Part shown: one piece after another, positions 10,810 through 63,500 of the stretch
Layout: each line of letters starts with the position of its first letter
How positions within the stretch are numbered: position 1 is the first letter of the stretch
Assembly: GCA_032358255.1 (NCBI GenBank)
Contig: JAULBX010004444.1
Location: 62,001-126,000 of the forward strand
Length of the DNA: 64,000 nt
Direction: 5' to 3'
DNA from: Heterotrichella gracilis
Taxonomy: Eukaryota > Sar > Xanthophyceae > Tribonematales > Xanthonemataceae
Notes under the pieces: generated by a model
The model's input: the letters and a program-made list of their open reading frames with translations, nothing else
Told to the model about the DNA's origin: nothing
Databases searched by the model: none
Program-made: the position numbers and the translations under genes

Positions 10810-11126
10810 CTTCTGAAGAATCAGGCGCTTGGCAAGCCCCATGCGGCGCTGAAATGCGCAGCACCGACCCCAGATGTTGAACCCCGCCCTGGGCCATCTG
10901 CCACTGGCAGCAACACATCCACCTCCCACCCCACTCCCAGGGGCACCGACGTAGGTACCAATGAGCACGCTGCGCAGCGAGGCCTCCCAGTGATCAGGTG
11001 CGTGGTGGCGCTGAGGTAGGCGCGTGCGTGGGGGCGCCCGTCGGTGCACATCTGCCTTGTACACGCCTGCAAGCGCGCAGCGCCGCTCTGAGGCACACTT
11101 TGCACCGGCGACATCTTGCAGCGCAC
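10810..11126 (-). repeat. Ghost copy of sulfotransferase terminal exon
   Basis: Minus-strand text HARAYLSATTHL followed in another frame by EASLRSVLIGTYVG mirrors HYARAYLNATQGPREASLRN of the functional last exon (11160-11402). Frame breaks show it is not functional. It lies directly 3' of the real exon. Confidence 0.65.
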
Positions 11127-11159
11127 ATCCCCACTGAACCCATTGCCCTAGCTGTGCAG

Positions 11160-13471
11160 CTACGCGTCTGCGCCCAGCTGGTCCGCCGGGAAGCCCAGCA
11201 GGTCGAAGTCCTCCTTGTAGTAGGTGTGCACGTTGCGCAGCGAGGCCTCGCGCGGGCCCTGGGTGGCGTTGAGGTAGGCGCGCGCGTAGTGGGTGGAGCG
11301 CTCCGTGTGCGTGTGCGAGGAGGCGGCGTTGTCGTGCGGGACCTGCGCCACCACGATGGGCGGCAGCTCCGGCGGCTTGCGCGCGTTGATCAGCGACAGC
11401 ACCTGCGTGCACACAGCCACCAAGCAGATTCTTACACGACTTTAATTGGATTTGCATCCTCAAAATGAATCTGTCTCATGACCATGGCTGGCGGCTTGGG
11501 CGAGTTGATCAGCGACTGGACCTGCGCGCACACAGCCAACAGGCACATTCAAAACATGCCTTTTTAGGGTTTTAGGGTTTAGGGTTTAGGGTTTGTTGGT
11601 GGGCAATTTCAAATGGCCCTGCGCCACCATGCTGGGGGGCAGCTCTGGCGGTTTGTGCGTATTCATCAGCAACAGGGCGTGCCCACACGCACCCACCATG
11701 CAAGATGTGATGATTAGATCTTGATAGTTGAATGGTCTGTACAATTGCCACCCCTTATTAACCCACCTCCCGAAAATCCTCGTCCAGGTTCTCTGTGCGA
11801 CCTATGTAGTCCACGGCAGGCAGCGCAGCCCCGTCCGCAAACACACACATGGCTTGGGGCTCCAGGTGCTCCAGCACCCACCCAAAGGGCTTCTTGCAGC
11901 ACCGCCTGCAAAGGTGTAGTTGAAGGGTTTAGGGTTTATTTTAGGGTTTCTTGTGGCAAACATCCATATGGCCTGGGGCTCCAGGTGCTCCAGCACCCAC
12001 CCAAAGGGCTTCTTGCAGCACCGCCTGCAGGATTTTGCTTAGGGTACCGTATTTAGGGTATGTAGGGTTGAAAGCGTGTGAATGTAGGGACAACACATGG
12101 TTGCAGTGGCGGTGGGTATGCGCGCAATCCCCAAAGGCTAGGGTGGGCATGCTCAACCCTAGGCTAGGATGTCAACCATAGTGTGGCAAGTGCCTTGGCT
12201 TTTTTACAAGGTTGCCAAGGCTCTTGGGATCTGTTCATTGAAGGACTTCTCCCCATGGGAGCTGCCTATACAGATATCAAATCATGCAACTTTTCATCAT
12301 TACCCTGTTGTCCTGCTACCCCAAACCCTAGGCCAGGGTTCCCTCACCTTCTTGACAAGCACATGGTTGCAAAGGCGCTGGGGATGCGCGCAAACTCCGG
12401 GAAGGGCTTTGCGCAGCTGGGTGCGATTGCGTGCTTCATGATGTGCTTGTAGGAGGAAACCGCGCGCGTGAAGGGGTTGCGCACAAACGTGAACACAAAG
12501 TAGGAGGACCAGGACCGCTCTACCTGCAACATTTTGATTTAGGGTTCAAATCTGGACTTATAGATGGCACTGAAGATCAATGGCTCTAGGTCTAGGGTCA
12601 AAGCGCACACCGCAAGTGCTGCCTCCATTGTGTGTCTGGCTTGTGCTGCCTCGATGCACATGTGCAAACTACCTTGCCCTCGCACTGCAGCCCATTGCAG
12701 CAGGAAGGGTAGTGGTCAAATGTTTAATGTTTCCTCACCTGGCTCAAATGTTTGATGTTTGCTTACCTGGCTCAAGCTGGTCAAATACTCCATGCACATG
12801 GGCTTGTCCTCGCAATGCGCGTTGCACCAGGCAGGGTCGTGGCGGCACACGCTAGGGTTTTCTCGGAACCCTAGGGTGTTGGAGATGGTGGTCCCGCCGA
12901 TCTTGGAGATCCGCACAAAGATGACCTTGTACCTGTGGTAGATTGGGGTATTTATAAGCAACCTTTTGATGCAGGTGGATGAACAGCCTGCTTTGCACAG
13001 GCGGCGCCAAGCAGTGATAAACTTCAGCACTGGGTACACCAATAGATGAACGAACCAAGTCCTGCTAATATAGGGTTTAGGGCCAAGTCAGCTGTACCTG
13101 TGGTCGATGTAGAAGTGGCAGGATGGCACCGGGGACTGCAGCTTGATCAGCGGGGTTGGCTGCAGTCCCCGCCGCTTGCTGAATTTTGCATGGATGCGCA
13201 CGATCCACTTGAACACATCGGGCGAGGACACATACTTTGGTATGCCGTAGCGGTCCGCATCCAGGTTGGTCATGTACCGCAGCAGCCTCTCCACGTTTTG
13301 GGGTGGGCCGTGTTTTTTCTGTGGGCCATGGAGGCGGGATGGCTGGGTGATCATGTCCACCACCTGGGCCTCGGTGATGCAGGAGGAAGGGTGGGGCTGG
13401 GACAGCAGCATTGCAGCGACGAGGGTCACAGCAGCACATAGCAGACCATGTGGATGGCTGCTCCTGCCCAT
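11160..13471 (-). CDS. Golgi-type carbohydrate sulfotransferase (Sulfotransfer_2-like)
   Basis: Five exons: 13471-13098, 12932-12767, 12523-12348, 11905-11767, 11402-11160; all phases match and give 365 residues. A hydrophobic N-terminal segment (about residues 9-25) suggests a type II Golgi anchor. The PAPS 5'-phosphosulfate loop is FVRISKIGGTT (residues 130-140). The 3'-phosphate motif is TFVRNPFTRAVSSY (192-205), with Arg195 and Ser203 as expected. Downstream are VDYIGRTENLDEDF and a C-terminal YYKEDFDLLGF, both typical of HNK-1/chondroitin/heparan-type sulfotransferases. The enzyme should move sulfate from PAPS to a glycan hydroxyl in the Golgi lumen; the acceptor cannot be told. Exon 2 has two tandem donors 28 bp apart (see findings). 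Introns are crowded with partial copies of exons 3, 4 and 5. Confidence 0.88.
11460..11545 (-). repeat. Ghost of sulfotransferase exon 5 start (copy 1)
   Basis: Minus strand reads CAG/VQSLINSPKPPAMVMRQ after an acceptor-like GTGTGCGCGCAG. This mirrors the functional acceptor and VLSLINARKPPELPP at 11402. Lies in intron 4. Confidence 0.8.
11562..11595 (-). repeat. Interstitial TTTAGGG telomeric motif
   Basis: About four TTTAGGG units on the plus strand inside intron 4 of the sulfotransferase. On the coding strand this reads as CCCTAAA. Confidence 0.9.
11610..11700 (-). repeat. Ghost of sulfotransferase exon 5 start (copy 2)
   Basis: Minus strand reads LLLMNTHKPPELPPSMVAQG, matching LSLINARKPPELPPIVVAQ of the real exon 5. 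Confidence 0.75.
11958..12031 (-). repeat. Near-identical ghost of sulfotransferase exon 4 5' half
   Basis: About 55 bp identical to 11850-11905, including the acceptor TGCAG and CCKKPFGWVLEHLEPQA, then abrupt divergence. The intact acceptor makes it a potential cryptic exon. Confidence 0.92.
12085..12140 (-). repeat. Ghost of sulfotransferase exon 3 3' end
   Basis: CACATGGTTGCA followed by GGTATGCGCGCAA resembles 12359-12400 of exon 3 (CACATGGTTGCAAAGGCGCT, then GGGATGCGCGCAA). Confidence 0.65.
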
Positions 13472-14660: not shown

Positions 14661-14663
14661 TGC

Positions 14664-14777: not shown

Positions 14778-17700
14778 ATGGCGGGCGATCAGGACACCAG
14801 CAAGGCTGCAGAGCAAAAGGGTGACAAGGAGTTCGAGGCCATCATCGCCAAGAAAAACAAGAAGGATGACAAGAAGGAGACGGAGCTGTCCGATGAGGAC
14901 CTGGAGCTCAAAAACAACTTGGAGCTCATGGTGCAGCGGGTACAGGACAGCGACCCTGGCGTGCAGCTATTGGCCATCCAGTCCATCGGCAAGGAGATCA
15001 AGACTGCCACCACATCAATGACCTCCGTCCCCAAGCCCCTCAAGTTCCTGAGGGCCCACTACGCCACCCTCAAGTCTGCGTACGACACCGTGGCAGATGG
15101 GGCCAACAAGGCGGCCCTTGCAGAGGTGGTGTCAGTGATGGCCATGACCAATGCCAAGGAGGGGGAGCGAGACTGCCTGGGCTTCAGGCTCTTGGGGCCC
15201 AGGAACAACGTGGGCGACTGGGGCCACGAGTACGTGCGGCACCTGGCGGGGGAGATCGGCACGGAGTTCCAGGATCGCAGGTCAAAGGACGAGGATGTGG
15301 CTGAGCTTTTGGACCTGGTGGCCCAGATTGTGCCCTACCACATGTCACACAATGCCGAGCCAGAAGCTGTGGACTTGCTACTGGAGACCGAGCAGCTGGA
15401 GGTGCTGCCACAGCACGTGGATGAGAAGAACTACGCCAGGACCTGCCTCTACTTGCTAAGCTGCTGCAGCTACCTGGCTGAGCCCGATGACATGGCGGTC
15501 CTCCAGGCAGCCTACGTCATCTACATGAAGGTGGACAAGTACACCGATGCTCTCCGCGTGGCCCTGCACATGAACAACCGCGACCTGGTGGAGTCAACCT
15601 TTGTGGCCTGCTCCGACCCCCTGGAGAAACAGCAGCTGTGCTACCTCTTGGGGCGCCATGGCACCACCCTCAATTTGGAAGATGGCCCAGCTGCTGTAGA
15701 GGACGAGGAGCTCCGGGAGAAGCTGCGCCAGATCATCAGCAACAGCCACCTCAGCGCAAACTACCTCAGCTTGGCGCGCGATTTGGATGTGATGGAGGCC
15801 AAGATGCCGGAGGAGGTGTACAAGTCCCACCTGGTGGATGGCAGGGCGCCCACGGGTGCTGCGGTGGACTCGGCCCGGCAAAACCTTGCGGCCTCCTTCG
15901 TCAATGCGTTTGTCAACGCAGGTAGGGGAAGGCCTGGCTTGGTAGGGGAATAGTAGACAGCAGGGCAATGATGTCTTGCAGTTGTCAGCTCGTGAATTGA
16001 TGGCGAAAGGAATTGCATTGCCCTCCTGTCCATATGTATGTGGTATTTGGATCAGGGTGACATACTTGACCATTGCGCCATTCAATGATAGTTAGTATAG
16101 TTACAGAAGAAAATAAAACTGTTGACTCGTATGTGTGTCGTGCAGGGTTTGGGAACGACAAGATGGTGACCAGCAGCCCCGGGGACGAGTCCGAGGTGCA
16201 CTGGATTTTCAAAAACAAGGACCATGGCAAGCTCTCAGCCACCGCCAGCCTGGGCATGGTGCTCCTGTGGGACGTGGAGGGGGGTCTGCCCCAGATCGAC
16301 AAGTACCTGTACAGTACCGACAGCTTTGTGGTGGCGGGGGCGCTGCTGGCGGTGGGTCTGGTCAACTGCGGGGTGCAGGACGAGTGCGACCCCGCGTACG
16401 CGCTGCTGTACGACTCGGTCTCCAAGGAAGGTGGGTTTTTGGGTTTTTGGGGTTAGGGTTTTGGGGTTAAGGGTTAGGGTGCCTACGCGCTCTGTATGAC
16501 TTGGTCTCTAAGCAATTCCTTGTAGTGGAGCTGCTGTGTACCACCAGTGCGCACGCGAGGGTTGTCAGAAGCCACACATTCTCACCTTCCTTTCCCCTTG
16601 CTTCAGACATCAACGTGCGCACGGGGGCCATCCTGGGCCTGGGCCTCGCCTACGCGGGCACCCAGAAGGAGGAGGTGCAGGAGCTGCTGGTGCCCCTGGT
16701 GGTTGATGCAGACACCCCCATGGAGGTGCTGGGGGCGGCAGCGCTGGCGCTGGGCCTGGTGTTTGTGGGCTCCTGCCAAACGGACTGCGTGGAGGCGCTG
16801 CTGCAGGTAGGCTGACGATGAAAAACCCTAGAAAACCCTACATATAACCGAAATTATCAAACCTTAATATCTTAAATATGGAGGTGCTGGGATTGGTTGG
16901 CGCTTGCCTTTGAGCTTGTGTTTGCGAGTGCCTGACTGCGAGGAGACGCTGCTGAGGTAGGGTCTAAAACCCTCAAATAATGCAAAATCATCAAATGCTG
17001 CATAAGGACCATTTTGAATACGTTGTTGCTGGGTATGGCTTGAAGTGATGTTAGTGCAGTACTTTGGGTAATTGCCAGATCAAACACAACCCCCTCCCTC
17101 CCCTCCCCCCAGGCCCTGATGATGCGCTCCGACATTGAGCTGTCTGACTTCCATGCCAAGTTTGTGTGCCTGGGGCTGGCGCTGCTGTTCCTGGGCAAGC
17201 AGGACGCGGTGGAGGCAACCCTCGAGGTAAACCCTAAACCCTTAACCTTGTCCACAGCACGGTGCATTGCATGTCTGGGCCTGGCGCTGCTGTTCCTGGG
17301 CAAGCAGGGTTGGGGGAGGCAACCCTCGAGGTAAACCATAAACCCTAATTTGCAAAGGTTAAGCACCAAATCTGAAGCTGCAGCATAATGCATTCCATAA
17401 CCTTACCGTGCGTGGTGGTGCTACCCCTTTTCCATTCGCAGCCACCTACATGCAAGCTGCATACGGCCTGGTGAACATGCATGTGACAGTATGGTGAAAA
17501 GCCCACATCCACTCACACACCGCGTTCTGTCATCATCACCCCCTCGTTCAACCACCCACACCCACCCCATCCGCTCACCCACCTCCCACCCATTCCGCCA
17601 CCACCCTCAGGTGACCAAGACGCTGAGCGAGCTTACTATTAGCTTACAATTATAAAATGCTGAGCGAGTTTTATAATAAGATATTATATTAAAGTGACCC

Positions 17701-20553
17701 CACGTTCCACTTACAGGTGACCAAGACGCTGAGCGAGCGCATCAGCCTGTTTGCCCAGGCGCTGCTGGACGCGTGCGCATACGCAGGCACAGGGGATGTG
17801 CTCAAGGTGCAGGGCCTGCTGGCAATGTGTGGGGAGCATTTGGAAGCTGACGAGGGCAGCGCGTGGAAGGTGGGTGGGTGGGCAATTTGATGGGGTGGGG
17901 GGTGGAGTGGTGGGGTGGGTAATCGGGGATCTGGGATGCGGTCAAGGTGGGGGGGTTGTTGGCAATGTGCAGGGAGCATTAGAGGTGGATGGGGGCAGCG
18001 TGTGGAAGGTGGGTGGGTGGGTGTGGGGATGAAGCAGGGGGGGCTGTGGGTTGGGGCTTTAAAAGGCGAATGCAAAGTTTCGGTGGTCATTTGTGGGTAG
18101 GGCATTGAAGCAGGGGCGGCTACATGCATGCAAAGGGAGGCGCCTGGGATTGATCTGGTGGGGACCGGGGATGATCAGCAGGATCGAGATGAGGTTGAGG
18201 AACTCGTTGGGTGCGTAGGTGGTGGGGTGCTCGATCTTGCAGGTGCACAGCTGCAATGCAGATACTCACCTGCACCAGGGAACTGCATAACATGGAAAAT
18301 GATCACGTACTTACCGCCTTCCCCTCCCCCGCAGTCCTCCCACCAGAGCGCGGCAGTGCTTGGCCTGGCCCTGGTTGGCATGGCTGAGGACCTGGGGTCT
18401 GACATGGCGCAGCGCACGCTGGAGCACCTGCTGCAGTATGGGGACCCACCTGTCAGGTGGGTGCAGGGAATTTTAGGGTTTTGAGATGTCCCACGTTTGT
18501 TCCAGGAATTGTGGCATGGCAATACCTCCCCGCCACCATTTTCAAAAGAGGATTTGTCATACCACCATGACGTCCCCTTTCTTAACAGAACAGAATCATT
18601 GACTGGTGTCCGCTGCAGCAACTGCCTGCCATAGGCAACTCCAGGGATGGACAGATTCCCCTTTCACCGATTTGCTTCAACGAATCTCCTCTTGTTCACC
18701 CCTGCCCCCATCCCTATTCACAGGCGTGCCATCCCCCTTGCCATTGCCCTCCTTAACGCCAGCAACCCCAGCATCCAGCCCATGGATACCCTATCCAGGC
18801 TCAGCCACGACTCGGACCAGGATGTGGCGCAATCGGCTGTGCTGTCGCTGGGCATTCTGGGGGCAGGTGCGCAAAACTCTGAAACCCTCATTGCTTAGGC
18901 CAGGCCGGTGGGGTGCCCATGTATGGAGTGTGCCCAAAAGACGTTCCTGACAGCTGAAGCCCTAGATTAGTAAACACCATCAACGCTTGCCTCAAGCATG
19001 TATTAGCAGCAAATTGCATTATAAGCATTTAAGATCAAGGAATTTACGTGAATTGGATCATCCAGGTGGGTCATCCAGACACCAACAACACCCGTCTTGC
19101 TGTGTGGCGCCTTGCCTCCTACTACTACAAGGAACAGAAAGGTTATGAACACATTGATATTTTGAGTAATGAATAGAAGGAAACCGTGTTATTTAGGCAC
19201 CAACGACGCGCGCCTGGATGGCCTGCTGCGCGGCCTTGCCTCCTACTATAGTGAGGAGCAGAGAAGGTCATGATAACATTTCGGTTAGAATATAATGTAA
19301 TAAGTGAATGTGCTGTGTTTCCCAGGCACCAACAACGCGCGTCTGGCTGGCCTGCTGCGCGGCCTTGCCTCCTACTATTACAAGGAGCCCTCGCTGCTGT
19401 TCCTGGTGCGGGTGGCGCAGGGCCTGGGGCACGCCGGCAAGGGGCTGCTGGCCATCAACCCCTACCATACAGACAGGCAGCTGCTGTCAGGTGAGGAGGG
19501 TGTGGTTTGGTGGGTGGTGGAGTGGGGGTCAATGGTGTCTCGAGCCTTAACCAAAAGGTGTCTTTCTAAAAGAGGCGCCCTGTGCCTGCGCACTCTGTGC
19601 CTGCGAACATGATCTCCACACTGAGCATGCTCACTGCAGCGCTGGATGTGAAACCCTTACCAAAACTCTAATAAAACCTTATATACAACTGAATAAACCC
19701 TAATCAAACCCTAACCACCCGCAGGCGTGTCTTTGGCGGGCATCCTGTGCGTGCTCACCGCAGCGCTGGACATGAAATCCACCATTGCGGGCAAGTACCA
19801 CCACCTGCTGTTCCTGCTTGCACCCGCGATGCGCCCGCGCATGCTGATGACTGTGGGCGAGGATGGCAAGATGCTGCCGGTGCCTGTGCGCGTGGGGCAG
19901 GCGGTGGATGTGGTGGCGCAGGCCGGCAGGCCGAAGACGGTCACAGGTGGGTTAAGAGTTTACGGTTTTGGTTCAGGGTTGCACGTGGGTGTGGTGTGGG
20001 TAGATGGGGTCATTTAGGTTCAGGCGCGCAGGTCCAAGGCGTTGGCAGGTGGGTGGGTGGATGGACGGTGGGTTGTTTGGTATCAAGGGAGGACGGCAAG
20101 ATGTTGCTCGTGCATGTGCGGGTGGGGCAGGCGGTGGATGTGGTGGCGCAGGCGGGCAGGCCAAAGACAGTCACAGGTGGGTGGGCATGGGTGGGATGTT
20201 TGGGTTTGTGGGTGCTTATTGGCTTTGCAGGCATATTGCAACAGTGCATATTGGGTTTTCTGAGTGGTTGTTTCCTGAGCCATTGCCCCCCCTTCCACCC
20301 TCGAGTGCCGATTTCCTCCACCCCTCCCTTGCTCAAGGCTCTGAAATATTGCTCCCCCCTTCACCTGCACCAGCCAATTGACTTTCCCTCTCACTCTCGT
20401 GCTCCAGGCTTCCAGACGCACACCACGCCGGTCCTGCTGAGCTATGGAGAGCGCGCAGAGCTTGGCACAGAAAAGTACCTGCCACTCACTAACATACTGG
20501 AGGGGGTGGTCATTCTGAAGAAGAACCCCGCGTATGTGGACATTCCAGAGTGA
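14778..20553 (+). CDS. RPN1: 26S proteasome regulatory subunit RPN1 (PSMD2/S2)
   Basis: Largest scaffold of the 19S base; it binds ubiquitin receptors, shuttle factors and Ubp6/USP14. Ten exons with matching phases: 14778-15921, 16146-16430, 16607-16806, 17113-17226, 17717-17869, 18335-18456, 18724-18866, 19326-19490, 19725-19946, 20408-20553. The product is 897 residues, close to the family's usual ~890. The N-terminus has the Lys/Asp-rich [20 protein letters not shown] followed by [14 protein letters not shown]. Proteasome/cyclosome repeats include [10 protein letters not shown] (about 486-495), [10 protein letters not shown] and [13 protein letters not shown]. The end ([18 protein letters not shown]) matches plant RPN1. 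Start: GCCATGGCG. Nearly every internal exon has one or two ghost copies in the adjacent intron. Confidence 0.97.
16877..16965 (+). repeat. Ghost of RPN1 exon 3 3' end
   Basis: ATGGAGGTGCTGGGATTGG through GAGACGCTGCTGAGGTAGG parallels the last ~90 bp of exon 3 plus its donor (ATGGAGGTGCTGGGGGCGG to GAGGCGCTGCTGCAGGTAGG). Confidence 0.9.
17262..17334 (+). repeat. Ghost of RPN1 exon 4 3' end with donor
   Basis: CTGGCGCTGCTGTTCCTGGG then CAAGCAGG and GGCAACCCTCGAG/GTAAAC repeat the end of exon 4 (17176-17232), about 90 bp downstream, with only the middle degraded. Confidence 0.95.
17608..17668 (+). repeat. Ghost of RPN1 exon 5 5' end with acceptor
   Basis: CAG/GTGACCAAGACGCTGAGCGA at 17609-17629 is identical to the exon 5 acceptor and start (17714-17736). 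A smaller piece (TGCTGAGCGAG) follows. Confidence 0.93.
17935..18020 (+). repeat. Ghost of RPN1 exon 5 3' end with donor
   Basis: TTGGCAATGTGCAGGGAGCA through GGCAGCGTGTGGAAGGTGGG repeats the end of exon 5 (TGGCAATGTGTGGGGAGCAT to GGCAGCGCGTGGAAGGTGGG). Confidence 0.93.
19062..19140 (+). repeat. Ghost of RPN1 exon 8 5' half (copy 1)
   Basis: ACACCAACAACACCCGTCTT and CGCCTTGCCTCCTACTACTA mirror 19326-19385 ([20 protein letters not shown]). Confidence 0.92.
19195..19272 (+). repeat. Ghost of RPN1 exon 8 5' half (copy 2) with acceptor
   Basis: TTTAG/GCACCAACGACGCGCG through GGCCTTGCCTCCTACTATAG mirrors exon 8 again. Two copies plus the real exon are spaced about 130 bp apart. Confidence 0.93.
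19618..19658 (+). repeat. Ghost of RPN1 exon 9 5' part
   Basis: CTCACTGCAGCGCTGGATGT resembles CTCACCGCAGCGCTGGACAT of exon 9. Confidence 0.75.
20084..20182 (+). repeat. Ghost of RPN1 exon 9 3' end with donor
   Basis: Repeats the last ~90 bp of exon 9 plus GTGGGT (GACGGCAAGATGTTGCTCGT .. ACAGTCACAG/GTGGGT). Its translation, [20 protein letters not shown], stays open. Roughly nine bases in ten agree by eye. Confidence 0.95.
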
Positions 20554-21975: not shown

Positions 21976-24900
21976 TCACAATCCCCCCGTGATCCCCGCC
22001 AGCTGCTTCTTCACCCCCTCGCTCCACTCCACCAGCTTCTCGTAGTTGTCGGTCACGCGGCGGATGGTGTAGACCAGGAACACGATGGACACCAGGTGGG
22101 CGGTCAGGATGTTGGCAGAGGCCTGCAATGAGGTAGGGTTGCAGGGTTAAGAGGCATAATGGTAATTCCGACAGCACGAGGAAGACAAGCAGGCAGCGGA
22201 ACAGGAGTTTGACGCCCAAACAGCACTGAAGTAGTATAAAATGGGCACTACTGCCAGAACCCTGAACCCTAAAGCAGCAAAAGTGGTCCCATGCTCGGTT
22301 CAAAGGGCTGAATGCTTGCAGCAGCTCCAATGAAGCCAGCAGTGTGGGTAGAATTTGATGAATTGGATTGTCAAGGTTGTCAGGCATACCATAATCCGTG
22401 GCGCAGGCTAATGCCCCATGGCGCTGCTTGTACACCGTACTAGGGTATATACATACACCCTAAACCCTTGCGTGTACACAAAATCGACGGGTGACATCAG
22501 CATACTCTCGCACCTGTCCCATGGCCGCGATGGAGCCCGCATTGGTGACCGCGGTTGCAGTAGCATTGGCTTTCCCCGAGCTCAAGGCAGCAGCGAAGAT
22601 GGTCCCGACCTCTGACTGGAGGGCCAGGATAGTTGCCGCGGCGCCCATGAAGTTAATGGTGAGGTGGTCAAAGAACGACTTGAGGAGCTTGAAGCCCGCC
22701 AGGGCATCCTGGCCCTCCCTTGACACCTGGGCGGCAGGGTTGTGGTCAGGGTTGTGAGTGTAAAGACTGCTCATTGTAAGGGCATCCTGGCGTGCCCTTA
22801 CAAGCCTGGCAACGAGCTTAGGATTGCAATAATTGGATTGCAGCAGCCCTCATGAAGTTGTTTGTGAGGTGGTCGAAGAATGACTTGAGCAGTTTGAAAC
22901 CTGCCAGGGCATCCTGGCCCTCCCTTGAAACCTGTCCGCATGCGTAGCAGGGTTGTGGTTAGGGGAATTTACTGTTCAGCTTGAAAAGGTGGTCATTGGT
23001 AGGGCATCCTGGCCCCTCCCTACCAACCCGCAAGCGGTCTGCAATGTTTTGGGACTTCATTCTTCATGTCAGTGCTCCAGCCCTAGGCTTTGCAATTGTA
23101 CGGTACGCGATTGTAGAGTTTGTGGTTCTAGGGTTTGTGCTTAGACCTACAAGGTTTCTGCTCCTCACCTTCTTGACGTATGTGTATGACATGAATGTGC
23201 TGAACCCGCTCATCAGCACTCCAACCAGCAGCATCACCGTGGCAAAGTTGATGTTGATGCCCTGCAAAGCAACGCATTGGCATTACATAATATATACAAA
23301 ACCATAAAAACAAGGACATATCCTTTCCGAAACATTACTCGTGAAATGCGGGCTGTTAATGCAGTAGCAAGCACGTGTTGAAATTTTCATTAACCCCCAA
23401 ATTGTGCAAGTGGGCACCTGCGCATAACCCTAGGCCAGGGTGGGCACAAACCCTCAACCTGGGTGAAGTTTCTCCTCACCTGGGTGTGGGTGGTTGTACA
23501 CACCACAAACCCTACCTTCAAGTTTTGCCATGGCCTGTGACAGGCCTTAAAACCCTACTGACCCTATGCTAGGGTTTCCCCTTACCTTTGCCAGGTCGGA
23601 GTGTGTGGTTGTGAACACCACGAACCAGGACACCGCAGTGAGCACCAGCTGGGCAGCAAAGTTCCAGCGTACCAGATTGCCGATGCCCAGGTCAAGGCGG
23701 GTGGCCTGCAAACAGGAAATTGATCAGTATGAACGGCAGGAGCGTTCACTGTATAGCATTTCATTTTTAGGGTCATGACAGGGTTAGCCCCACCTGCTGC
23801 GGATCTTGACTATTGCACAATCCACAACTTGCCAGGCCTGCTTAATGGCCTGGATTAATCCATCTCTGGCCTGGCCCTACTTTAGGTCATACACCCTGGC
23901 TTCACGAAGAGTGTACAAGGACTTTCCGGTGAGTTCACAGGGGTTTCATTAGGGTTTCATAGGGTTCAGTGAGCCCTACCTGCAGCTCCTTGATCTTGCC
24001 CACCGCACCATCCAGCATCTGCCTGGCCTGCTTGTCTGCCTGGTTCAACCCATCCCTGGCCTGGCCTTGACCCTCGTAAGGGTTGTAGCGCCCTGGCTGG
24101 CTCGATGACATCAGCGTGGGGACAGCCTGTGCACAGGGAAGCAGGGCAGGCTTAATTAGGCTTTAGGGTAGGGTTTATGGTAGGGTTTAGGGTTCAAAGT
24201 AAAGCGCCCTGGCTGGCGCGATGACATCAGCGTGGGGACAGCCTGTGCACAAAGGACAGGGCTGGTTAGGGTTGAGGGTAACAAGGCCTGGTTAGAGTTT
24301 AGGGTTTAAGGGTTTATTTTACGGTTTAGGGTAAAGTGACCTGGCTGTCTGACATCGTTGTGGGAGCAGCCTGTGTACAGGGAACAAGGGCAGGCCTAAT
24401 TAGGGTTCAGGGTAGGGTTTAGGGTTCAAAGTAAAGCGCCCTGGCTGGCCAATGACATCAGCGTGGGAGCAGCCTGTGTACATGGAAGAAGGCAGGCCTG
24501 GTTAGGGTTTAGGGTGAAAGGGCCTGGCTGGACAGGCTGGATGACATCACCATGAGGGACAGCCTGTGTGTGCGTGGTGGGTTCTCGGGAGGGTTTAGGG
24601 TTGATAATTTAAGATTAAGCGGCCGCATCGCATGGCAAACAAGTTAGGATCTTAATTTACGATGCGTTGTAAGTGGTACTTTTTGGCTTTGCCGTTCAAG
24701 TGAAACTGCTTTTTTCGTGTTTTCCTCACCTTGCCGGGCCGCGCCCACCGCCTGCGGGGAGCACATGACAGGGGAGCCAGCACCTGCGAGAAGGGGCAAA
24801 TGTGAAAAAAGTCTTTTAGTTAATTTTGTAGTACCCTCGTGGACACACAGGTTAAACCTAAACCTTACACCCTAAACACAGATGGCGCCCTTTGGGAATG

Positions 24901-42343: not shown

Positions 42344-42406
42344 ACTAGTCCCTTGATGACACCAGTAATTTTTATCACGTTTTCCCTGGTGTCATCAAGG
42401 GCTAGT
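42344..42406. repeat. Hairpin element A upstream of F-box copy 1
   Basis: Left arm ACTAGTCCCTTGATGACACC(AG) and right arm (CT)GGTGTCATCAAGGGCTAGT are inverted repeats around a ~20-bp loop. First of three copies. Confidence 0.9.
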
Positions 42407-42759: not shown

Positions 42760-42840
42760 ACTAGCCCCCCTTGATGACACCAGCACCCCCGTTGGATGAC
42801 CAAGTGTGTCTAAATTTACTGGTGTCATCTAGGGGCGAGT
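42760..42840. repeat. Hairpin element B
   Basis: Same arms (ACTAGCCCCCCTTGATGACA.. / ..TGGTGTCATCTAGGGGCGAG) with a longer, different loop. It belongs to a ~415-bp tandem duplicate of the block at 42070-42420; flanking words such as GCACCAACCCTCTGCA and CCCACATGCATGCATGC recur. Confidence 0.88.
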
Positions 42841-45205: not shown

Positions 45206-45507
45206 CTACAGTACTATTTGACCTCACCTAGTTCCTTTCAGCTGAAGTGAGCCCAAAACCCTGTCCTGGTCCTCAGTATTTCAGGCAAACAGAGTTCCAC
45301 ACGCCGGCATGCAGCGCATGGGGTGGCATGCAGCGCATGGTGTGCTGATGCGCGGATAGAAACGGCACCAACCCTCTGCACACAACCAGTGACGTACGTC
45401 AAGGGTAGCAGTGAATTTTAAGACAGTGAATACCCCGTACGCTTTAAGCTAAGGGGTTGAGCAGGACCGGCCTTGGTATTGCCGGACACTGTCCAGGTAA
45501 ATTGTGT

Positions 45508-49000: not shown

Positions 49001-49859
49001 GGCGCAGGGTTCAGGGTTTTGGCCTTGGGGTATAGGGATATGGGCTCCTGTGTGTGCTTTGCGTCCTCGCCCGCCTGACGTACACTGACAGCAAGGAGGT
49101 CTAGGGTTTAGGGTTTAGGGTGCCAAGATGTGCAGCTCTGTGTGCTGCGCTGCCTCACCCGCCTGGCGTGCTCTGACCGAGTCTTGGGCATATGTAGCGC
49201 ATTGCCTACAAACTTGAACCCTGAGTTTAAGTATTTGGAGCGCATGTTTGTCCAGATAGGCGTTGTGGTGCACGGTACTGACCTTCCTTGCACATCGCTG
49301 CTTTAAGGGGCAAAAACACACCCATGGGTATTCAAAACCTGATGTCTAGAAAACTTTCCATCGTCCAGGTGTTGCATGGCAGGAATCGCAGGCGGTTTGT
49401 ACCTAAACCCTAGACCACAGCCCTCTCCGTTGCTCAGATGCCCTAATCCCTAAACCCTGAACCCTCTACCCCTAAACCCCCTCCTGTGCGCAGGTGTCCT
49501 ATGGGGGGGATTGCAGGGTGTGTCTCCTCTCCCTGTTGGCACCCATCAGCCCCAGCCTGCGCCTGGAGGGCTGGAGGGCTGGGAAGGTAGCCCTGCGGGT
49601 GAGCGGGCAGGGGTGGACGATATCGGCAGACGCGACGGGGGTGGAACAGGTGGTGACGCAGCTGTGGGGTCCTGAGGAGGCGCTGCGGCGGGGGGCGAGT
49701 GGGGGGGGCGGATTTGCCATGGGGGATGTTGAGGTTGGGGGTGATGCGGAGCAGCTGGCGGCGCTGCGGTGGGTGGCGGGGCACTACAGCCTGCCCGATC
49801 CTGGTGATCGGGGCTACCAAGTGCAGGAGTGGGTTTCAAAACTTGCCGGTAATGGCTAG
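46008..49859 (+). CDS. Intron-containing F-box/LRR protein
   Basis: Likely SCF substrate receptor. Secure exons: 46008-46166, 46514-46795, 47576-47745, 48148-48329, 48682-48997, 49494-49859 (TAG). The F-box spans exons 1-2: CHIHSLPDGALAQ joined to VLLLLPLTQRARTTVVCTRW. LRR-like text includes LTALTNLRLDFTQ, LASLARLQALELTV, VRSLRLNGRVHRELL and VQHLDLSNSGVQ. An extra exon must lie between 46795 (phase 0) and 47576 (phase 1). The best candidate is about 47110-47189 (ELALGVRAGFDEEFDDAISD, LEEAHA), but it would need a GC donor (CAG/GCATGG) and has a weak acceptor. Exon 4 (48148-48329) reads to a GTATGA donor that keeps the phase (LNRDF-LDELTLP). Ghost exons flank exons 1, 3 and 5. Confidence 0.72.
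46190..46292 (+). repeat. Two ghosts of F-box exon 1 3' end
   Basis: CCTGCTGGCACAG/GTGAGGCG and CCTGCTGGCGCAG mirror the exon end GCCCTGGCACAG/GTGAGGCG. The AACCCTAAAGCTGATA-like spacer is repeated with them at about 70 bp intervals. Confidence 0.88.
47436..47525 (+). repeat. Ghost of F-box exon 3 with its upstream intron
   Basis: TTAGAGTTTAAAGTGACATG, GCAG/GCATGGCACGCGTGACG and CGCCTCACCGCGCTCA repeat 47531-47620 at about 92 bp. Both acceptors are intact, giving two tandem candidate exon starts. Confidence 0.95.
49035..49192 (+). repeat. Two ghosts of F-box exon 5 3' end
   Basis: CCCGCCTGACGTACACTGAC (about 49070) and the copy at 49125-49185 (GCTGCGCTGCCTCACCCGCC, TGCTCTGACCGAGTC) mirror LCALPCLTRLTCCDRI. 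A CTAGGGTTTAGGGTTTAGGG run lies between them. Confidence 0.88.
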
Positions 49860-54000: not shown

Positions 54001-56910
54001 GTGGGGGGTGATGCATAACGCAGTGGAGGAATGGTGGGTGGCTGCACAGGAAATGTGAAAAATTACATGCACAAAATGCAATAACTGTGCATTAGGGGGC
54101 GGCGCACAGGTTGGTGAAGGGTTGGTGGGTGCCTGTGCAACAACAAAAAAAGATGATTTGAAATACGCATGCATGCATGAGAAGCATGTAGGACTAATTT
54201 TGGTGTTCTGCCAAAACGCACGTAAGAAAGTAAGAACAATGGGGCTGCGCGCAGGGCGGTGGAGGCATGGTGGGTGGCTGACAACACAACACAACTTGGA
54301 ATATACGCGCGCTGCCTGTAGGATAAACTTAACGACATTTTGAATTTTCCTGCCCCTGCAGGAGACACTGGATACACCAACAAAAGGACAAGCGGCGCAG
54401 GGCGGCAGCCGTGCAACGAGCCCTGTCCCGCACCCGTCTACACAGGGCTGTGCAGGCGTGGGCAGGGATGCGCGGGGCAGGGGCATCCAAGCAGGGTCGC
54501 TACCTCAAGATGCAACGGTAGGGAAATAGGCAATTGCAACTTAGAATACAACGGGGGATTATAAGTATCATTAATACCTTTACTATTAATCTTTTTCAAA
54601 CCATACCTTGAACCTGCCGCCAGCCTATGCACATTTATCCAGCCCCGACCTCCTTGCCTTTGCAGGTATCATCTGCAGGCAGCCATGCGCAGCAGCCTGC
54701 GCGCGTGGAGGGACCATGCGCACGCCAGGCGGCCCAGGCGGGAGGCTGCCAGGTGGCGCAAGCGCAGGCTGACAAGGGGTGCAATGGCGGCCTGGCGGGC
54801 GGCGATTGCGGGCAGGAAACGGCTGGAGGTTGCGCACAGCCGGTGCAGTCGGGCGCATGCATTCAGGTGGGAGTTGGATTTTCTTTTCACCTTTGGCACA
54901 TTTGGTAGATCTTGCGATTTGTTTTTTGGTAAAAGCTGGTGCAGTCGGGCGCATGCATTTACGTGGGGGGGGGGCATTATATTTCCTGTAGCAGCCCTCA
55001 CCTAAAAGTTATGTAAAGGTCATTCAATCGGGTGTTCCTTTATCAAGATTTTGTCTGATCATTGCAATTTCTTTTGCTGATGACATCCCCCCGCGCCTGT
55101 GCAGGGCTGGGGTAGAATGGATTAGTCAAAGGACAAAACCTAAATATTTATTAATGTTTTTATGTGCAGGACCACCCAGCGCACCTTCCGTGCCTGGCTG
55201 GAAGAGGTGCAGGGCAGTGCGCTGGCCAATTTGGAGGAGCACCACACATCAGCCACAGCTAGCATACAGGTATGGGGCATTAGACCCAGGGCATCGTGCA
55301 AGTTGGATTTAAATAGCTATCAAAAGTTGGGAGGGGAAATGTCCCATGCAAAGCTGCGCTATGAGAATAAGGGGAATTTTGCATGATTGCCATAATCATA
55401 CTCACCGGGGTCATGACCGCAAAATTCACATCATTTTAGAACCTGGTGTCATTTTCAAGACATTCATTTCTCATATTTCGACGTCAGGCCCTCCAAGCCA
55501 CCGCCGCCAAGCTGCGGCGCGACAACGAGCGCCTGGTGCGCATGGTAGATGCGCAGGCGGAGGGCGGGGAGGCCGCGGCGCACGCGCAGGCTGCTGCAGC
55601 AGCGTTGGCAGGTGAAAGGGATGCACTGGCTGGGCTGGTGGCTACTGTGCAGGCAGAGGCTGCAGCACTGCAGGTAAGGGATTTGTGTGAATTTGCATTC
55701 TTGCAACCCGGTCGCTACACGTTGAACCCTGCCCAGCGTCATAAACATCAAACCTTCCATCCCTAATCCTGCCACATGAACCTCGACATCATGCCTTAAC
55801 CCCTAACACTGCACCATGAAACCAGAAACTGCGCCTTGAACCCTATGTGCCACTGCACCTCCACCCGCTGACCTGCGCTGCACTCTAACCCTGACTCATA
55901 CTCACAGGCTGCCAAGGCGCAGCACGAGGCAGACTTGCAGCGGCTGCATGCATCACTGGCGGCGCAAGCGGAGGGTGCACACTCACCAGGTGGGGATCCC
56001 CACCATGGTTGTGGCCAGTCACTGCATTGCTGTAGCATGCCAATGCATTGTCACTGGCAATGCTGTCATGTGCCTCTTCCCATACTGTTGAGGGTTACGG
56101 ATTGATGGTTGAGGGTATATGATGTTGATCTCTTCCTCTTGCCCTCTCCCTCCCTCAATTAATGCATTGTACAATATGAGGCTCTGATTTTCTCCACCAC
56201 AATCCCCCATTCCTACTCACACCACCCACCCACCCGCACAGCCCGCGCCAGCCTGCGCAGCAGCCCGGCCCACCCCCGGCGCGCACCCCCCTCCCCCAAC
56301 CACTACACCGCCCCCCACCCGCTCTCCGAATACCGCGCAGCTGCCGATGCCTTCTCCCGCAACCACATGCTGGTGCGGGGGCCGTCCTCCTTCAACGCCC
56401 TTGTGCGCAGTTTGAAGCAGGAGGTGGCGGCTGCCAGGGCCAGCCCCCCGACAGGGGGGGCGCGGCACGCGGGAGGGGAAGGGGAGGGAGGAGGGGGCGT
56501 CCCCTGCCAGAGGAGCGGGTGGTGGAGTTAAGGTGGGTGGGGTTGGTGGGTGGGTGTATGTTCAATGTGCTGGTCTGCAGATTGAAATTGGATAGGAGGT
56601 GAAATGGAATTAAGGTAATATACATAAATAAATAAATAAACATTATTGCAACAATGTCTGACACGCAGCAGTTGCTTGGCAGATTATCCCTCCTTCCTCC
56701 CTGCCCCCAATTTTCATTTGGATCCATTTATAATCCATTCCAAATTGTTTACAGTCTATATTATTGTTATTTTTTGCCTTCGCGCAGGTGTGCGTGGACC
56801 GTGTGGAGGCGTTGGACAGTGGGGAGCTGCGGGTGCAGCCGCTGGGGTCACCTGCAAAGTTGGTGGCGTTTGGGGCAACGTTCGACGTGCAGCCATCCAG
56901 CACAGCATGA
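51055..56910 (+). CDS. SFI1-like W/R-repeat and coiled-coil protein
   Basis: Predicted exons: 51055-51677, 52137-52299, 52608-52634 (microexon, optional), 52752-52898, 53157-53396, 53491-53619, 53864-54033, 54362-54517, 54666-54866, 55170-55269, 55488-55673, 55908-55989, 56242-56423, 56788-56910; about 842 residues. The N-terminal 210 residues are Ser/His/Arg-rich and disordered. Residues about 345-640 hold roughly nine Trp-centred repeats such as LGAWRAAVRQRRDTW, CMAAWRAWGQGRRDM, SLRAWRDHAHARRPRRE and AMAAWRAAIAGRKRL. They resemble the centrin-binding repeats of Sfi1, so a basal-body/centrosome role is the best guess. A coiled coil follows (ATAAKLRRDNERLVRMVDAQ, then an Ala/Glu-rich helix). 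The donor of exon 13 is ambiguous: GAG/GTGGCG keeps the frame, whereas reading on enters poly-G and a stop. Exons 2, 7 and 9 have ghosts. Confidence 0.75.
51866..52095 (+). repeat. Two ghosts of SFI1-like exon 2 5' part
   Basis: CAG/GTCATTGCAAGCAGAAGG through GGAGACCTCAGCCAGTGGGG (51868-51928), and CAG/GTCAGTGCAAGCAGAGGA to GAGACCTCAGCCAGT (52041-52090), mirror exon 2 (52134-52190, SVQAEGARYVGDLSQWGQE). The CCTTTCCTGTTCCTTCACCTGCA-type intron text before them is also repeated. Confidence 0.94.
54236..54288 (+). repeat. Ghost of SFI1-like exon 7 3' end with donor
   Basis: CGCAGGGCGGTGGAGGCATG/GTGGGTGGCTG mirrors AACGCAGTGGAGGAATG/GTGGGTGGCTG. It supports the choice of the ATG/GTGGGT donor. 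Confidence 0.9.
54924..54972 (+). repeat. Ghost of SFI1-like exon 9 3' end
   Basis: GGTGCAGTCGGGCGCATGCA then TTTACGTGGG repeats GGTGCAGTCGGGCGCATGCA, TTCAG/GTGGG of exon 9, about 95 bp downstream. The AG of the donor has changed to AC. Confidence 0.94.
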
Positions 56911-59172: not shown

Positions 59173-60509
59173 CTCTTCCCTTCTACAGACCTGCTTTCAA
59201 GGGTGTGCCATGACCACATGGCAGTGCCAACCCGTGGTTTCACCCACTTGACGCCTCAACAGCAAGCGCCATACACAATGCCTGCACACGGTTTGCTTGT
59301 TGCCTGTGTAGAAAGCCCATTTTGGCCAGTCATTGGGCCACCTCCCCTTCGCGACTTCTCACACAAATGGCCACCTAATTCCAAGGGGAGTGGTCGATCA
59401 ATGAAGAAGAAAAAGAACACAAAGCACTCCTCGTTTCGTCAACATTAATGTAATCCCCTGGACCCCTCTGTTTGAACAGCATCAGACAGATAGCTGTTTC
59501 TCCGCGTCCCAACACCCACACTTCACTCGATGCAGCGTCCAATGTAAGCTTCGTGGACTGCATAGGTCATTCCTACCCTCTTTGGCTCGTGGGAGTGGAG
59601 TGTTACGTGCAGCTTCTTCGACAACTGAGTGACACCGTCTGGAGGGGGTGTTGCAAATCAAGTACAACCTTTGGATGCACACAACCACTGCACAGGCAGC
59701 AGCTTGCGTGTTTCGCAAGTTATATTCCAGGTGAATACGGACGTCCTTTGGGCCCTGTGTGCGCGTTGGCTGTGCCTGCGGTTCCCTCAGGGCATGGGGG
59801 TGTTACCTCTTTTAAAACCTACTAGTCTACCGCATGTAAGCATCCCTGGCACTGTACTGCCACTGCTACATTGCGGAGGGTAAACGAGTTGCATACAACG
59901 GAGCTGACCGAATTGGTTCTTGTGTGGTGGCCCTCTTGCACCTGGATCTTCCATATTGGGCCTGTCCTAAGAACAGCTGCAGGAGTGGACGGTGGAGTGG
60001 GTGGCGCCAACCTTGTTCTCGATGTGTCGATGGCACAGAACCCACTTTTTAGTTCATGATTTCAACCAAATTGTTGCTGTAAAACTTCCGTTTTACCTAC
60101 ACTTCCGAAAGCGGGTTTTGGCAACGCTTCCGCTGGGTTGTTTCAACGTTTGCAAATACCTTCCGTTTGGCGGTGGCACTGGCACAGCATGCATAGCACT
60201 TCCAAACTTTGAGGCATCCCGAGTACAGCATGGCAGGCCCTTGAACAACAAACTGTGATGGCTGGTCCCCCAGGTGACCCAAGGAAACCTTTGACACGCC
60301 AGCGAAGGCTTTTTGGAGTACTTTTGCAAGATGCCTTTCTCCTCAGAACCAAGGTCACCGCTCAACCAAGAGCACAAGAGGGCGTCTGAGCAAGGTCTGC
60401 CACAATCCCAGGGGGTTCTGAAACCCCCTGCTTTATGATCTGTTGTGTTGACAAACCTTGTGGTACCAGTGTACCAACCAACTGGGTCCCTGTCCTCATG
60501 CATGTGCAG
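59173..60509. other. Divergent region Hikeshi / SMC6
   Basis: Must hold both promoters and probably the first coding exon of SMC6, which I could not locate. Open frames here show no domains. Confidence 0.4.
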
Positions 60510-63500
60510 TGTTGGAGATTCCCCCCAAACGGGCCAACCGGGGCTCCAAAACAGCTCTGCAACAGCTGGACGGCAACACTGTGAGGGCAAGGAAAGCAGC
60601 CCCTCAGAAGCAAGTGGAACAAGTGCCAAATTTCGTTCATCAGGTGAAAGCTTGTTGTTGTCTTGGTGACTTAGTGCACAGCCCAGATCTGTGCCACAAC
60701 CTTGCGAGCAGTGCACCAACACTTGTTTTACAACCAACCGATTTACTTGTTGTATTGCAGATGAATGTAGAGACAGACGAGCTGCAGTGGAGAACAGAAG
60801 GAGTGGCTGGACAGGTTATGCAGATGCACCTTGTGGACTTCATTTGTCACAAGAACCTCAAGATCGACTTCAAGTAAGTTGAGACCAGTACTGCAAATCC
60901 TGGGCTCTTGCACAATCCATTTATGTACCTGGGTAGGCATGCTGAGAGTGGACGTTGGTTTTATTACCATCAACTCAAGGTTTGAATCTTGCACACTGAC
61001 AAATTGCACAAGGACCCAACATTGCCACTTGTTTCCGCTCTTTCCAACCTGCAGACCGTGCCTGGGTATATCCCAGTATTCACTCTTGTTGGTTGTTCCC
61101 GTGCAGTCCACACGTGACTTTCATCGGGGGCAAAAACGGGTCCGGCAAAACTGCAATCCTGAACGGGCTCCAGGTATGCTTGGGAGCCAAGGCCCGCACC
61201 GCCAGGGGGTGCAAATCTGTGAAGGAGTACATCCAAACCGGATGCGAGGACGCCACTGCGGAGGTGACCATCTGGAACACTGGCCCGGGAGCCTACAAGC
61301 CAGCTGTGTTTGGCAGGAAGATCACCATTGAGCGCCGCATCAGCCACGTGCAGCACCGCAACGCCTACCTGCTCAAGAACTGCGAGGGCAGGGTGGTAGA
61401 GAAGGGCGCCAAGGCGCTGGAGGAGCTGCTGGACGCCATGCAGATCGACGCTGGCAACAAGATGGCCATCCTGACGCAGGAGGACACCAAGAAGTTCCTG
61501 TTAGCCAGCGGGGAGGCGTCTGCCAAGAGGATGTATGAGCTAGTGATGGAGTCAACGTGAGTGGATTCTTTTAGCTACTTGCATGCATTCCCGCAATACT
61601 GCCAGATTACCAGGCGGCGCCAAGTTTGGTCCCGGTACGTGAGTGGGAATGCTAGTTGCCTGTTGCATTTTCTGCACGGAAATGCTCCAACATTGCTGTT
61701 GCTTCCAAAACCACCTCCCATGGATGAGTGAATTGCTAAGTTGAAAGTGCATTTCGTGGAAATGGTGTGCTGCAACCCGCTGCGTGGGTGGATGCATGTA
61801 AGTAACGCAACGGCTGTGCTGCAGGGGCCTGGCTGATCTTACTGAAAAGCTGAACCAGATCGAAACCGGCTTGGTTGAGGTAAAGGAGATTCTGGTCTGC
61901 ATGCGGGAGGAGCACAAGGTAGGAGTACTTTTTAGGATAAAGGATTTATAGGTTAGGGATAAGAGCAGCATCAGCACCCTGCACCGCATGCGCGAGAAGC
62001 ACAAGGTATGAATACTTTTTAGGGTTCAGGGTTTTGGTATTAGAGCAGCATTAGCGCCTGCACCGCATGCGGTAGGAGCACAAGTTAGGAGTACGCGTAA
62101 TTGTGTTGTAATCCGTGAGCAGTCCTCGCGGTGCATGGAGAACACACCATTTGCTCACAATACAACCCTTTCGATACCCTTAACATGCCTGCATAACATG
62201 GATTTTGAGACTCCTGCTATAAACAGATTTATTGCCACCCTTGAAGCTCTCGCTCTGTCCCTCGTTAGGTGATCAAGCAGAAGCATGACGAGGTGCAGAA
62301 GAAGACGGATGACCTGGTGCAGCAGGAGCAGAAGGAGCGGGAGTGGGTCCTGCTGGAGAAGGCGGTGCTGTGGGCCCGCGTGGACGAGGACCGCCAGGGG
62401 GTGGCAGCAGCGGAGGCCAGCGTGGAGAAGTACAGCGGCCAGGTGGCGCAGGTGGAGCAGGCAATCGCAGAGCTGGCACCCGAGATTGAGGCGTCTGAGG
62501 AACAGCTGGGCCAGGAGGTGATGCGCTGTGCTGCTTTATGTATTTTGCCCCCCTGCTAGAGTGCCATGTGACAAAAATTGGGGTATGCATCTCTCCATGG
62601 CCTTAACCTCGGTGCAGTTGAAAAACAGGAAAGCTTAGGTCACAGCAATTCGGGGCAACGTTGCCGCGTTGTCCATGTGTGATGCGCCATGCTGTTCCTT
62701 TCGTGAAAATGGAATCATGTACCAGCCCATGTTGCATCGTTCTTGTTCGATGTCTTGAAGCAAGCAGTCTAACCGGTTTTTTTGTGATGTGCAGCGCGAT
62801 GTTGTGAAGAACTTTGCCACCCGCATCAAGCCGCTGCACACTAGGGTCGGTCAGACCCAGCACCGGCACAGGGCCCAAAAGAAGGAGCTGATGGAGCTGG
62901 CCAAGGATGAGGCCAGGACCAAGGCAGACCTGGACTATCAGGCCAAGCAGCGCCAGGTGCGTAAGCGTGTATTTAAGCCCTGATGCCTCGCAGCTGGAGC
63001 AGTTTGTCGGTGCCATGAAGCCTGTGTTGGTGTAGGAAGGGGCAAAGTGGATCATAGCAAATATTATAACATTATGCTATATGCTGGTGGTTTCAATTAC
63101 GATTGAAATGGAAGTATATGCCTATAATATTCAATGTCCAATGCAAATAAACGTAAAGAAAGTAATAAATTAATTTGGCGTCGATACATATGGTGTGCAG
63201 GAATTGATGGAAGCCGCCAGCGCAGCCAAGAACGACGTGGCGCTGCAGACACAGGCTGCATGGGATGAGCATTCTGTGAGGGTGCGGCAAGCGGAGGCCC
63301 AGCTCCAGGGCGCCCAAGATGAGCTGCTGCGTGCTGATCAGGATTTCAGGTGCGACACCCTTGCTGGGATCCTTCTGTGTCTGCATTTGGATTGGGTTGG
63401 TATGGTAGGGTAGGTTGCTGAGGGGTAAAGGCAATTCAAGGTTGCTGTTCTTGTCCTGCCCTGCCTGTGGAGAGAACGCACGAATACCCAGTGGTCCCGG

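Follow-up and report, generated by a model that had tools for sequence, protein, structure and literature searches.

A 64-kb window of algal DNA (64,000 nucleotides; positions 62,001 to 126,000 of contig JAULBX010004444.1, assembly GCA_032358255.1, Heterotrichella gracilis) has introns that carry decayed direct copies of the ends of neighbouring exons, and between copy and parent there is often a stretch that resembles the telomere repeat. These intronic copies are termed ghosts here. The interpretation we favour, with a probability of about one half, is a recurrent, repair-mediated local duplication that takes place in genes, often with telomere-like filler. The observations beneath it are local copies in direct orientation, a deficit of copies in intergenic DNA, neutral decay, spacers seldom recognizable as duplicates of the flank, an excess of telomere motifs in spacers and the presence of the same repeat at contig ends. 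The original prediction, made from the window's sequence, read the copies as decaying duplications and is supported in part, but the telomere-like sequence between them was overlooked.

The assembly is 68.5 Mb in 903 contigs. The window was supplemented by 24 10-kb stretches, most of them on other contigs, to give a sample of 304 kb; 28 such stretches had been retrieved, and three of low GC content and one consisting wholly of N were left out. Repeats were found by tile-wise self-comparison for direct pairs at offsets limited to 30–700 bp, with telomere tracts masked. Masking could make copies seem to stop at tracts; an unmasked run yields 166 pairs versus 167, and the spacer-flank extension test described below was unmasked. 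Exons were called, without RNA-seq, by a hidden Markov gene finder for which these same sequences served as training data. It converged on 513 exons and 451 introns, and its splice signals are sharp (donor CAG/GTGNGT, acceptor TGCAG/G). The 25 ghosts that it called exons were relabelled by rule, and introns split by ghost exons were merged before counting, leaving 408 introns and 471 exons. Exon-linked records with a spacer below 20 bp are excluded from the spacer, border-length and spacer-flank tests, and families whose nearest copy is more than 320 bp away are excluded from the strict spacer test and the motif-orientation test.

Self-comparison of the window and the other 240 kb shows that the pattern recurs: there are 167 local direct-repeat pairs, present in 19 of the 25 sequences and forming 108 clusters, about one per 2.8 kb. 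Their density is uneven, with 52 pairs in the window, 115 in the remaining 240 kb and none in six of the 24 other stretches. By an automatic criterion 31 of the 52 window pairs link an exon to intron DNA, on both strands. The claim of more than 30 copies next to at least 25 exons is thus confirmed for the copies, but the parent exons number 23. The longest exact match in the window is 56 bp (at 11855, offset 119) and identities run continuously from 100% to below 75%, much as had been described (about 55 identical bp down to barely visible); the series of copies described earlier are also present, beside exons 23980–24126 and 19326–19490 (Table 1). Over the whole sample, at least 20 bp of exon-derived copy occurs in 71 of the 408 introns, and 84 contain a local repeat of any kind.

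Copying affects either end of an exon, the head together with its acceptor or the tail together with its donor. As originally described, copies are cut across the splice junction with 15–90 bp of exon: a splice border lies inside the copy or within 8 bp of it in 82 of 113 exon-linked pairs, and these border copies hold a median of 45 bp of exon (5–95% range, 20–88) plus 8 bp of intron. Offsets are mostly 80–350 bp. Many pairs have a copy of at least 50 bp near its source, at offsets of 80–400 bp, and many others are shorter. Whole exons are almost never copied (1 of 471 lies wholly within a copy), and the copies are without coding constraint; the phenomenon is therefore not alternative-exon duplication of the animal type, which again agrees with the first description. 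A reading-frame effect is rejected, as offsets modulo 3 in exon-intron pairs are unbiased (33, 36 and 28).

Of each pair, the real exon is the conserved member, whereas the copy behaves like neutral debris. Copy-parent mismatches at codon positions 1, 2 and 3 are 11%, 10% and 20% (100 pairs), which is not what coding constraint in the duplicate gives; the roughly twofold value at the third position fits free drift of the copy beside a parent that changes only at synonymous sites. Clear selection on ghost splice sites is not seen either, since the dinucleotides decay at nearly the neutral rate: GT is kept in 38 of 48 aligned ghosts (37.2 ± 2.8 expected; one not aligned), and AG, slightly above expectation, in 22 of 24 (18.8 ± 1.9 expected; two not aligned).

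Might the assembly or the gene finder have produced the copies artificially? The 25 ghosts called exons, and models behind which stand neither reads nor RNA-seq, might raise that suspicion, but the explanation is very unlikely. Identities grade continuously, and unrelated tiles of the 240 kb gave 2 matches versus 115 between true neighbours. In addition, the structure of RPN1 is verified by homology: the model, built without ghost exons, aligns over residues 26–893 with the solved proteasome RPN1 (PDB 8amz_Z, E = 0). The expected Pfam domains are found in the sulfotransferase, Rieske, NFACT and Hikeshi-like models, and the SMC-like model matches AAA_23, with SMC_N under its cut-off.

The original prediction had the exon borders as targets, and in that form this part lacks support. 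Pairs that touch a border are indeed numerous (101 of 167, versus 62 ± 7 with rotated annotation; strict spanning, 63 versus 40 ± 6), but the excess over shifted borders vanishes given exon overlap, where 48 of 114 pairs span a border and 43.5 ± 4.5 are expected from random placement. Borders might still be targeted, for example by R-loops or transcription-replication conflict at GC-rich exon ends. Repeat coverage rises to 12% in the last 20 bp of the exon at donors, versus about 4% at −100, although the gradient at acceptors is weaker (8.5% versus about 5% at −80) and long exons rise again deep inside. Donor cases exceed acceptor cases by 51 to 26 when thinned to one per 600 bp (p = 0.006), a bias that could also be due to selection, a copied acceptor being upstream of the real one. 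In six window genes backed by homology, 15 of the 70 borders are in or near a copy, versus 11.7 ± 3.2 for points placed at random in the same genes, so that a border preference is not demonstrated by the window alone.

A model of uniform duplication with the observed unit sizes predicts that 29% of events span one border, 24.5% are intronic, 24% intergenic and about 19% exon-internal or across more than one border. Clusters of at least 85% identity (n = 66) comprise 44 exon-intron, 12 intron-intron and 3 intergenic cases, with 7 of other classes set aside; for those 59 the model expects 22.1, 18.7 and 18.3, respectively. The excess of exon-intron over intron-intron clusters has p = 1.4e-4 at 85%, uncorrected. 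However, exon-derived pairs stay above a given identity about 1.5 times longer, as estimated from codon-position mismatches, because the exon parent changes slowly; with this factor p becomes 0.014 at 85% and 0.19 at 90%. Junction spanning is thus mostly not targeting, since borders are dense, exon-internal copies are presumably purged and exon-derived pairs remain recognizable for longer. What excess is left after rotation, conditional placement, the uniform model and the random points is marginal; borders are favoured weakly, if at all, and targeting as the main cause is improbable.

The process does seem to favour genes over intergenic DNA. Local repeats are not equally frequent in the two, as the original prediction also supposed: they cover 2.7% of intergenic DNA versus 6.0–6.7% of introns, and there are 3 intergenic clusters where 18 are expected. 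With the 1.5-fold correction the intergenic shortage in the whole set persists (p = 3e-5 at 85% and 0.002 at 90%).

Telomere-like sequence is a feature of the introns. The most frequent 8-mers of the introns are AAACCCT in its seven phases, which take the top seven ranks, and the density of the motif is 3.85 per kb in introns, 0.25 in exons and 0.60 in intergenic DNA. Three units, (AAACCCT)3, have 901 exact matches genome-wide, and the reversed control has none. Runs of eight units occur in 11 contigs; in six they start in the first 135 bases of the contig, and in the other five the opposite orientation is found at one place of higher coordinate. Judged by orientation and coordinates, these runs are as expected of telomeres, and TTTAGGG is the alga's own telomere repeat. 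A telomerase RNA-binding domain is encoded in the genome. A palindromic 8-mer, ATGCATGC, likewise ranks with its phases among the most frequent words of the introns (ATGCATGC itself has a count of 74 in the 304-kb sample).

Motif and copies go together. The motif is present in 63 of 105 introns with copies and 90 of 323 without (p = 5e-9), and its density tracks pair density across the 25 sequences (Spearman 0.68). The duplicated units themselves contain it in 39 of 75 exon-intron clusters, versus 16.4 ± 3.5 in matched units of the same contig, and in 7 of 14 intron-intron clusters versus 2.1 ± 1.3. Perhaps the motifs are splicing signals, such as a branch point or an enhancer, kept near intron ends by selection, with a merely positional link to the copies. 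They peak within 40 bp of donors, and genome-wide a donor is followed by the motif in 536 matches and preceded by it in 171 (overlapping matches counted). In the last 60 bp before acceptors CCCTAAA prevails over the other orientation, by 77 to 4 where the intron has a copy, by 46 to 11 where it has none and by 215 to 112 genome-wide. Yet TTTAGGG near an acceptor would introduce an AG, so that its scarcity there need not call for a positive function; moreover, two thirds of introns are without the motif, and the excess of 39 over 16.4 remains when units are matched by contig and class. The splicing-signal explanation is quite improbable.

The anatomy of the copy pairs bears most directly on the mechanism. 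If a unit were simply duplicated in tandem, the spacer between parent and copy would be homologous to the far flank. A strict test for such homology over at least 80% of the length, applied to 97 families with offsets up to 320 bp and spacers of at least 20 bp, is positive in none of the 97 and in none of the 40 with at least 88% identity. The motif is found in the spacer only in 31 families, in the flank only in 5, in both in 11 and in neither in 50 (p = 1.3e-5). Among 53 spacers of at least 60 bp, 10 have it at their junction end, whereas the equivalent place beyond the ghost has it in 1 of 53. The order of the event is copy, telomere-like filler, copy. The sulfotransferase gene of the window gives an example: the 45-bp spacer between the copy at 11956..12029 and the real acceptor is telomere-like, with six motif hits. 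Both motif orientations together were seen in none of the 47 motif-bearing spacers. Only two spacers were searched genome-wide, and each matches only itself; a foreign filler was rejected on these two, and neither has the near-identical matches at many loci expected of introner elements.

Several observations weigh against a repair event with added filler. Under a looser test, the spacer resembles the flank more than it does flanks drawn at random (p < 0.05) in 62% of the 32 pairs of at least 90% identity and in 24% of the 33 at 84–90%. The strict extension also misses likeness that is visible by eye (stretch L017 at 3296, L008 at 6511), and stretch L031 holds long tandem segments whose likeness runs across the unit. 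Given this likeness, part of the set is plain tandem duplication. Fifty of the 97 spacers have no telomere motif. Telomerase that adds repeats to the 3′ end of a break should place TTTAGGG by the left copy and CCCTAAA by the right, and this bias is absent (15 and 32 spacers); the simple form of telomerase action was rejected on that ground. Much of the association between motif and copies lies between contigs; a permutation confined to contigs and length classes leaves a weaker one (63 versus 53.4 ± 3.7, p = 0.007). The intergenic shortage, too, is weak when set against intron-only pairs alone (3 to 12, p = 0.019; 2 to 9, p = 0.035; all identities, 6 to 11, p = 0.18).

The main rival is plain tandem duplication throughout, in which a unit with a telomere-like tract in it from the start is doubled by slippage, by unequal exchange or at staggered nicks that are filled in. 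The tract would be a fragile site, and would mutate so fast that the duplicated part of the intron is no longer recognized. Besides the likenesses just mentioned, the preponderance of direct over inverted pairs (167 to 43 without a threshold, 105 to 17 at scores of at least 45), which speaks for the preferred reading as well, and two arrays fit this explanation. The arrays belong to four short stretches, L031–L034, which were inspected only and are outside all counts; they were picked because the motif occurs there in series and are a biased sample. One exon of L031 is accompanied by two additional heads and five additional tails, the tails with a period of about 153 bp and pairs 83–93% identical over 220–690 bp. 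Each tail is followed by a telomere-like stretch save the last, and the last copy of the second series of L033 likewise lacks a tract, which does not fit a duplicated unit; nor do the strict test and the 31:5 asymmetry between spacer and flank. Exon-end copies are also present in L032, L033 and L034. The strict test and the looser one with the arrays thus pull apart, and the claim of recurrent short tandem duplication followed by decay stands for local duplication and neutral decay, although the tandem form is not clearly general. As an account of the whole set, plain tandem duplication is possible rather than probable.

The head of an exon that appears ATPase-like, a label given from the look of the translation only, is found three times in L034 (211–225, 291–305 and from 371) with an 80-bp period, each time after an AAACCCT tract and an acceptor. 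Annotation pipelines could take such copies for micro-exons.

Repair-mediated duplication, the interpretation preferred here, might proceed as follows. A break in or near an intron would start the event, and its repair would leave about 20–150 bp of adjoining sequence twice in direct orientation. Telomere-like or other filler would often remain between the two copies, supplied perhaps by telomerase or by captured telomeric DNA, and the copy itself could be made by synthesis-dependent strand annealing or through fill-in by CST with Pol alpha-primase. Events inside an exon, or of a whole exon, would be removed by selection, whereas intronic events and those at a single border would survive because the original splice site is still usable. 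The extra copy would then decay neutrally, leaving a longer intron. A bolder version can be put forward only tentatively, and we consider it doubtful: telomerase and/or CST-Pol alpha may act routinely on breaks in transcribed genes and leave copy-telomere-copy scars, such telomere-coupled repair may be a main force of intron growth and of new decoy splice sites, and the tracts may seed further rounds and so give rise to arrays.

Tandem exon duplication with mutually exclusive exons is known from animals, where exon sequence is duplicated beside itself. The alga differs in that exon ends are copied without coding constraint, and a whole exon in 1 of 471 cases. Introns can also be gained by tandem duplication of sequence containing AGGT, again a local duplication beside splice-site sequence. 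Here, in contrast, the copies are inside introns and usually bring a splice site of their own; no new intron was shown, though none was sought.

Closer parallels come from studies of break repair. Duplications attributed to synthesis-dependent strand annealing, with linked copies of up to 619 bp that include exons and intron splice sites, are described from vertebrates, human included (Pace et al. 2009, PMC2671141). They share with those of the alga the close linkage and the inclusion of exon and splice-site sequence. However, a special pipeline yielded 824 linked cases for the whole human genome, compared with about one cluster per 2.8 kb sampled here, and telomeric filler is not mentioned in the abstract (PMC2671141). 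In primates and rodents, telomere repeats are inserted at double-strand breaks; the break site is reported as duplicated at 6 of the 130 loci in rodents and 4 of the 25 in primates (Nergadze et al. 2007, PMC2246262). These are likewise short internal runs of the host's own telomere repeat, and in their duplication class the tract lies between the duplicated sequences, as the spacer-only motifs do here (31 of 97 families, versus 5 with flank only). Compared with what that source reports, the link between motif and duplication is commoner in the alga, and its tracts are short, degenerate and mainly intronic (PMC2246262). Finally, in mouse and human cells staggered breaks give rise to small tandem duplications through CST-guided fill-in by Pol alpha-primase; the induced breaks include some with 43-bp overhangs, and CST is the complex that fills in telomeres (Schimmel et al. 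2021, PMC8355091). Short direct duplications are common to both systems, and a telomere machine is a possible tie to the telomere-like tracts, although offsets in the alga are mostly 80–350 bp and a spacer is usual (PMC8355091). We propose that CST/Pol alpha fill-in would tie duplication to telomere-like overhangs.

No account of exon-end copies or intronic telomere-like filler at this density was found in the titles and abstract openings listed by searches of the openly accessible literature, which leaves subscription papers mostly uncovered. The sections of the Coccomyxa genome paper at hand have no mention of exon copies in introns (PMC3446292). The ingredients are known, but they appear to be new in this combination, at this density and in introns; the mechanism is inferred.

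The copies of the window, with two of their parent sequences and one gene, are listed in Table 1.

Table 1. Exon-end copies and related features in the 64-kb window (positions are those of the window)
Feature	Position	Strand	Basis and remarks
RPN1 gene (26S proteasome non-ATPase subunit), 10 exons, several exon-end copies	14778..20553	+	gene finder; PDB 8amz_Z alignment
Parent exon tail with donor (exon 17113-17226)	17167..17228	+	gene model; self-comparison
Intronic copy of tail of exon 17113-17226	17272..17332	+	89%, offset 105; spacer starts AAACCCTAAACCC
Old copy of tail, exon 16607-16806	16878..16954	+	68%, offset 158
Copy of acceptor and head, exon 17717-17869	17608..17632	+	exact 25 bp, offset 106
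Copy of tail, exon 17717-17869	17933..18021	+	81%, offset 140
Copies of acceptor and head, exon 19326-19490	19075..19249	+	self-comparison
Copy of tail with GTGGGT donor, exon 19725-19946	20089..20182	+	90%, offset 230
Parent acceptor and exon head, sulfotransferase gene (exon 11767-11905)	11837..11910	-	gene model; Pfam domain
Copy of sulfotransferase acceptor and head (exon 11767-11905)	11956..12029	-	95%, 56 bp exact
Copy of acceptor and head, exon 11164-11402	11490..11550	-	87%, offset 119
Further copy of acceptor and head, exon 11164-11402	11615-11702	-	77%
Series of copies of acceptor and head, exon 23980-24126 (24203, 24341, 24435)	24203..24527	-	telomere-like tracts between
Copy of acceptor and head, exon 29729-29845 (Rieske oxygenase)	29510..29548	+	92%, offset 209
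Copy from head of exon 31674-31938	31536..31606	+	90%, offset 176
Copy of acceptor and head, exon 35678-35818 (NFACT/RqcH gene)	35476..35564	+	82%
Copy of tail, exon 35678-35818 (NFACT/RqcH gene)	35883-35914	+	self-comparison
Copy of acceptor and head, exon 36394-36592	36224..36298	+	74%, offset 165
Copy of acceptor and head, exon 47576-47745	47451..47523	+	90%, offset 97; spacer holds TAGGGTTTAGGG
Copy of tail, exon 48682-48997	49134..49183	+	84%, offset 189; telomere-like spacer
Copy of tail, exon 54666-54866	54934..54967	+	91%, offset 96; spacer without telomere motif
Copy of tail, exon 61825-61918 (SMC-like gene)	62065..62094	+	93%, offset 166

The likeness of the copy from exon 31674-31938 extends upstream (31499-31606 versus 31669-31782). 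Other repeats of the window are a repeated intergenic block (42063-42365, 42478-42783 and 45223-45457) near two F-box/LRR-like genes, 40317-41471 and 43351-44562, that look like tandem duplicates, and a 27-bp tandem repeat of 5.5 copies at 8913-9060, which is mostly in a predicted exon and encodes a KGRKPPPVV-type repeat.

The protein encoded at 33848-39333 is nearest to that of Myrmecia bisecta (49% identity), followed by Trebouxia, Scenedesmus and other green algae among the best 120 of 271 matches; by these relatives the host is a trebouxiophyte-like green alga. The protein is of the NFACT/RqcH type, and besides green algae its named relatives among those 120 are mostly cyanobacterial, which suggests a plastid-derived quality-control factor. 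The three stretches set aside for low GC content (L003, L019 and L021; 33–39% versus 50–57% in the stretches used) contain no telomere motifs and are organelle or contaminant contigs in the assembly. Two of them have no local direct-repeat pairs; the control they provide is not clean, as L019 has seven.

Introns with a copy have a median length of 401 bp, versus 265 bp for those without, which is in line with the early suggestion that introns grow as a result, although longer introns also have more room for copies. Transposons are often invoked to explain why introns lengthen; in this alga 71 of 408 introns bear the record of small duplications from the exon next to them. Since the copies are graded by age and the parent is under selection, they provide an internal clock by which the rate, unit size and decay of intron growth can be measured in one genome. 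They also provide many decoy splice sites of known age, which could be used to test the tolerance of splicing, and the alga offers a natural test of whether the telomere machinery joins in the repair of breaks inside genes.

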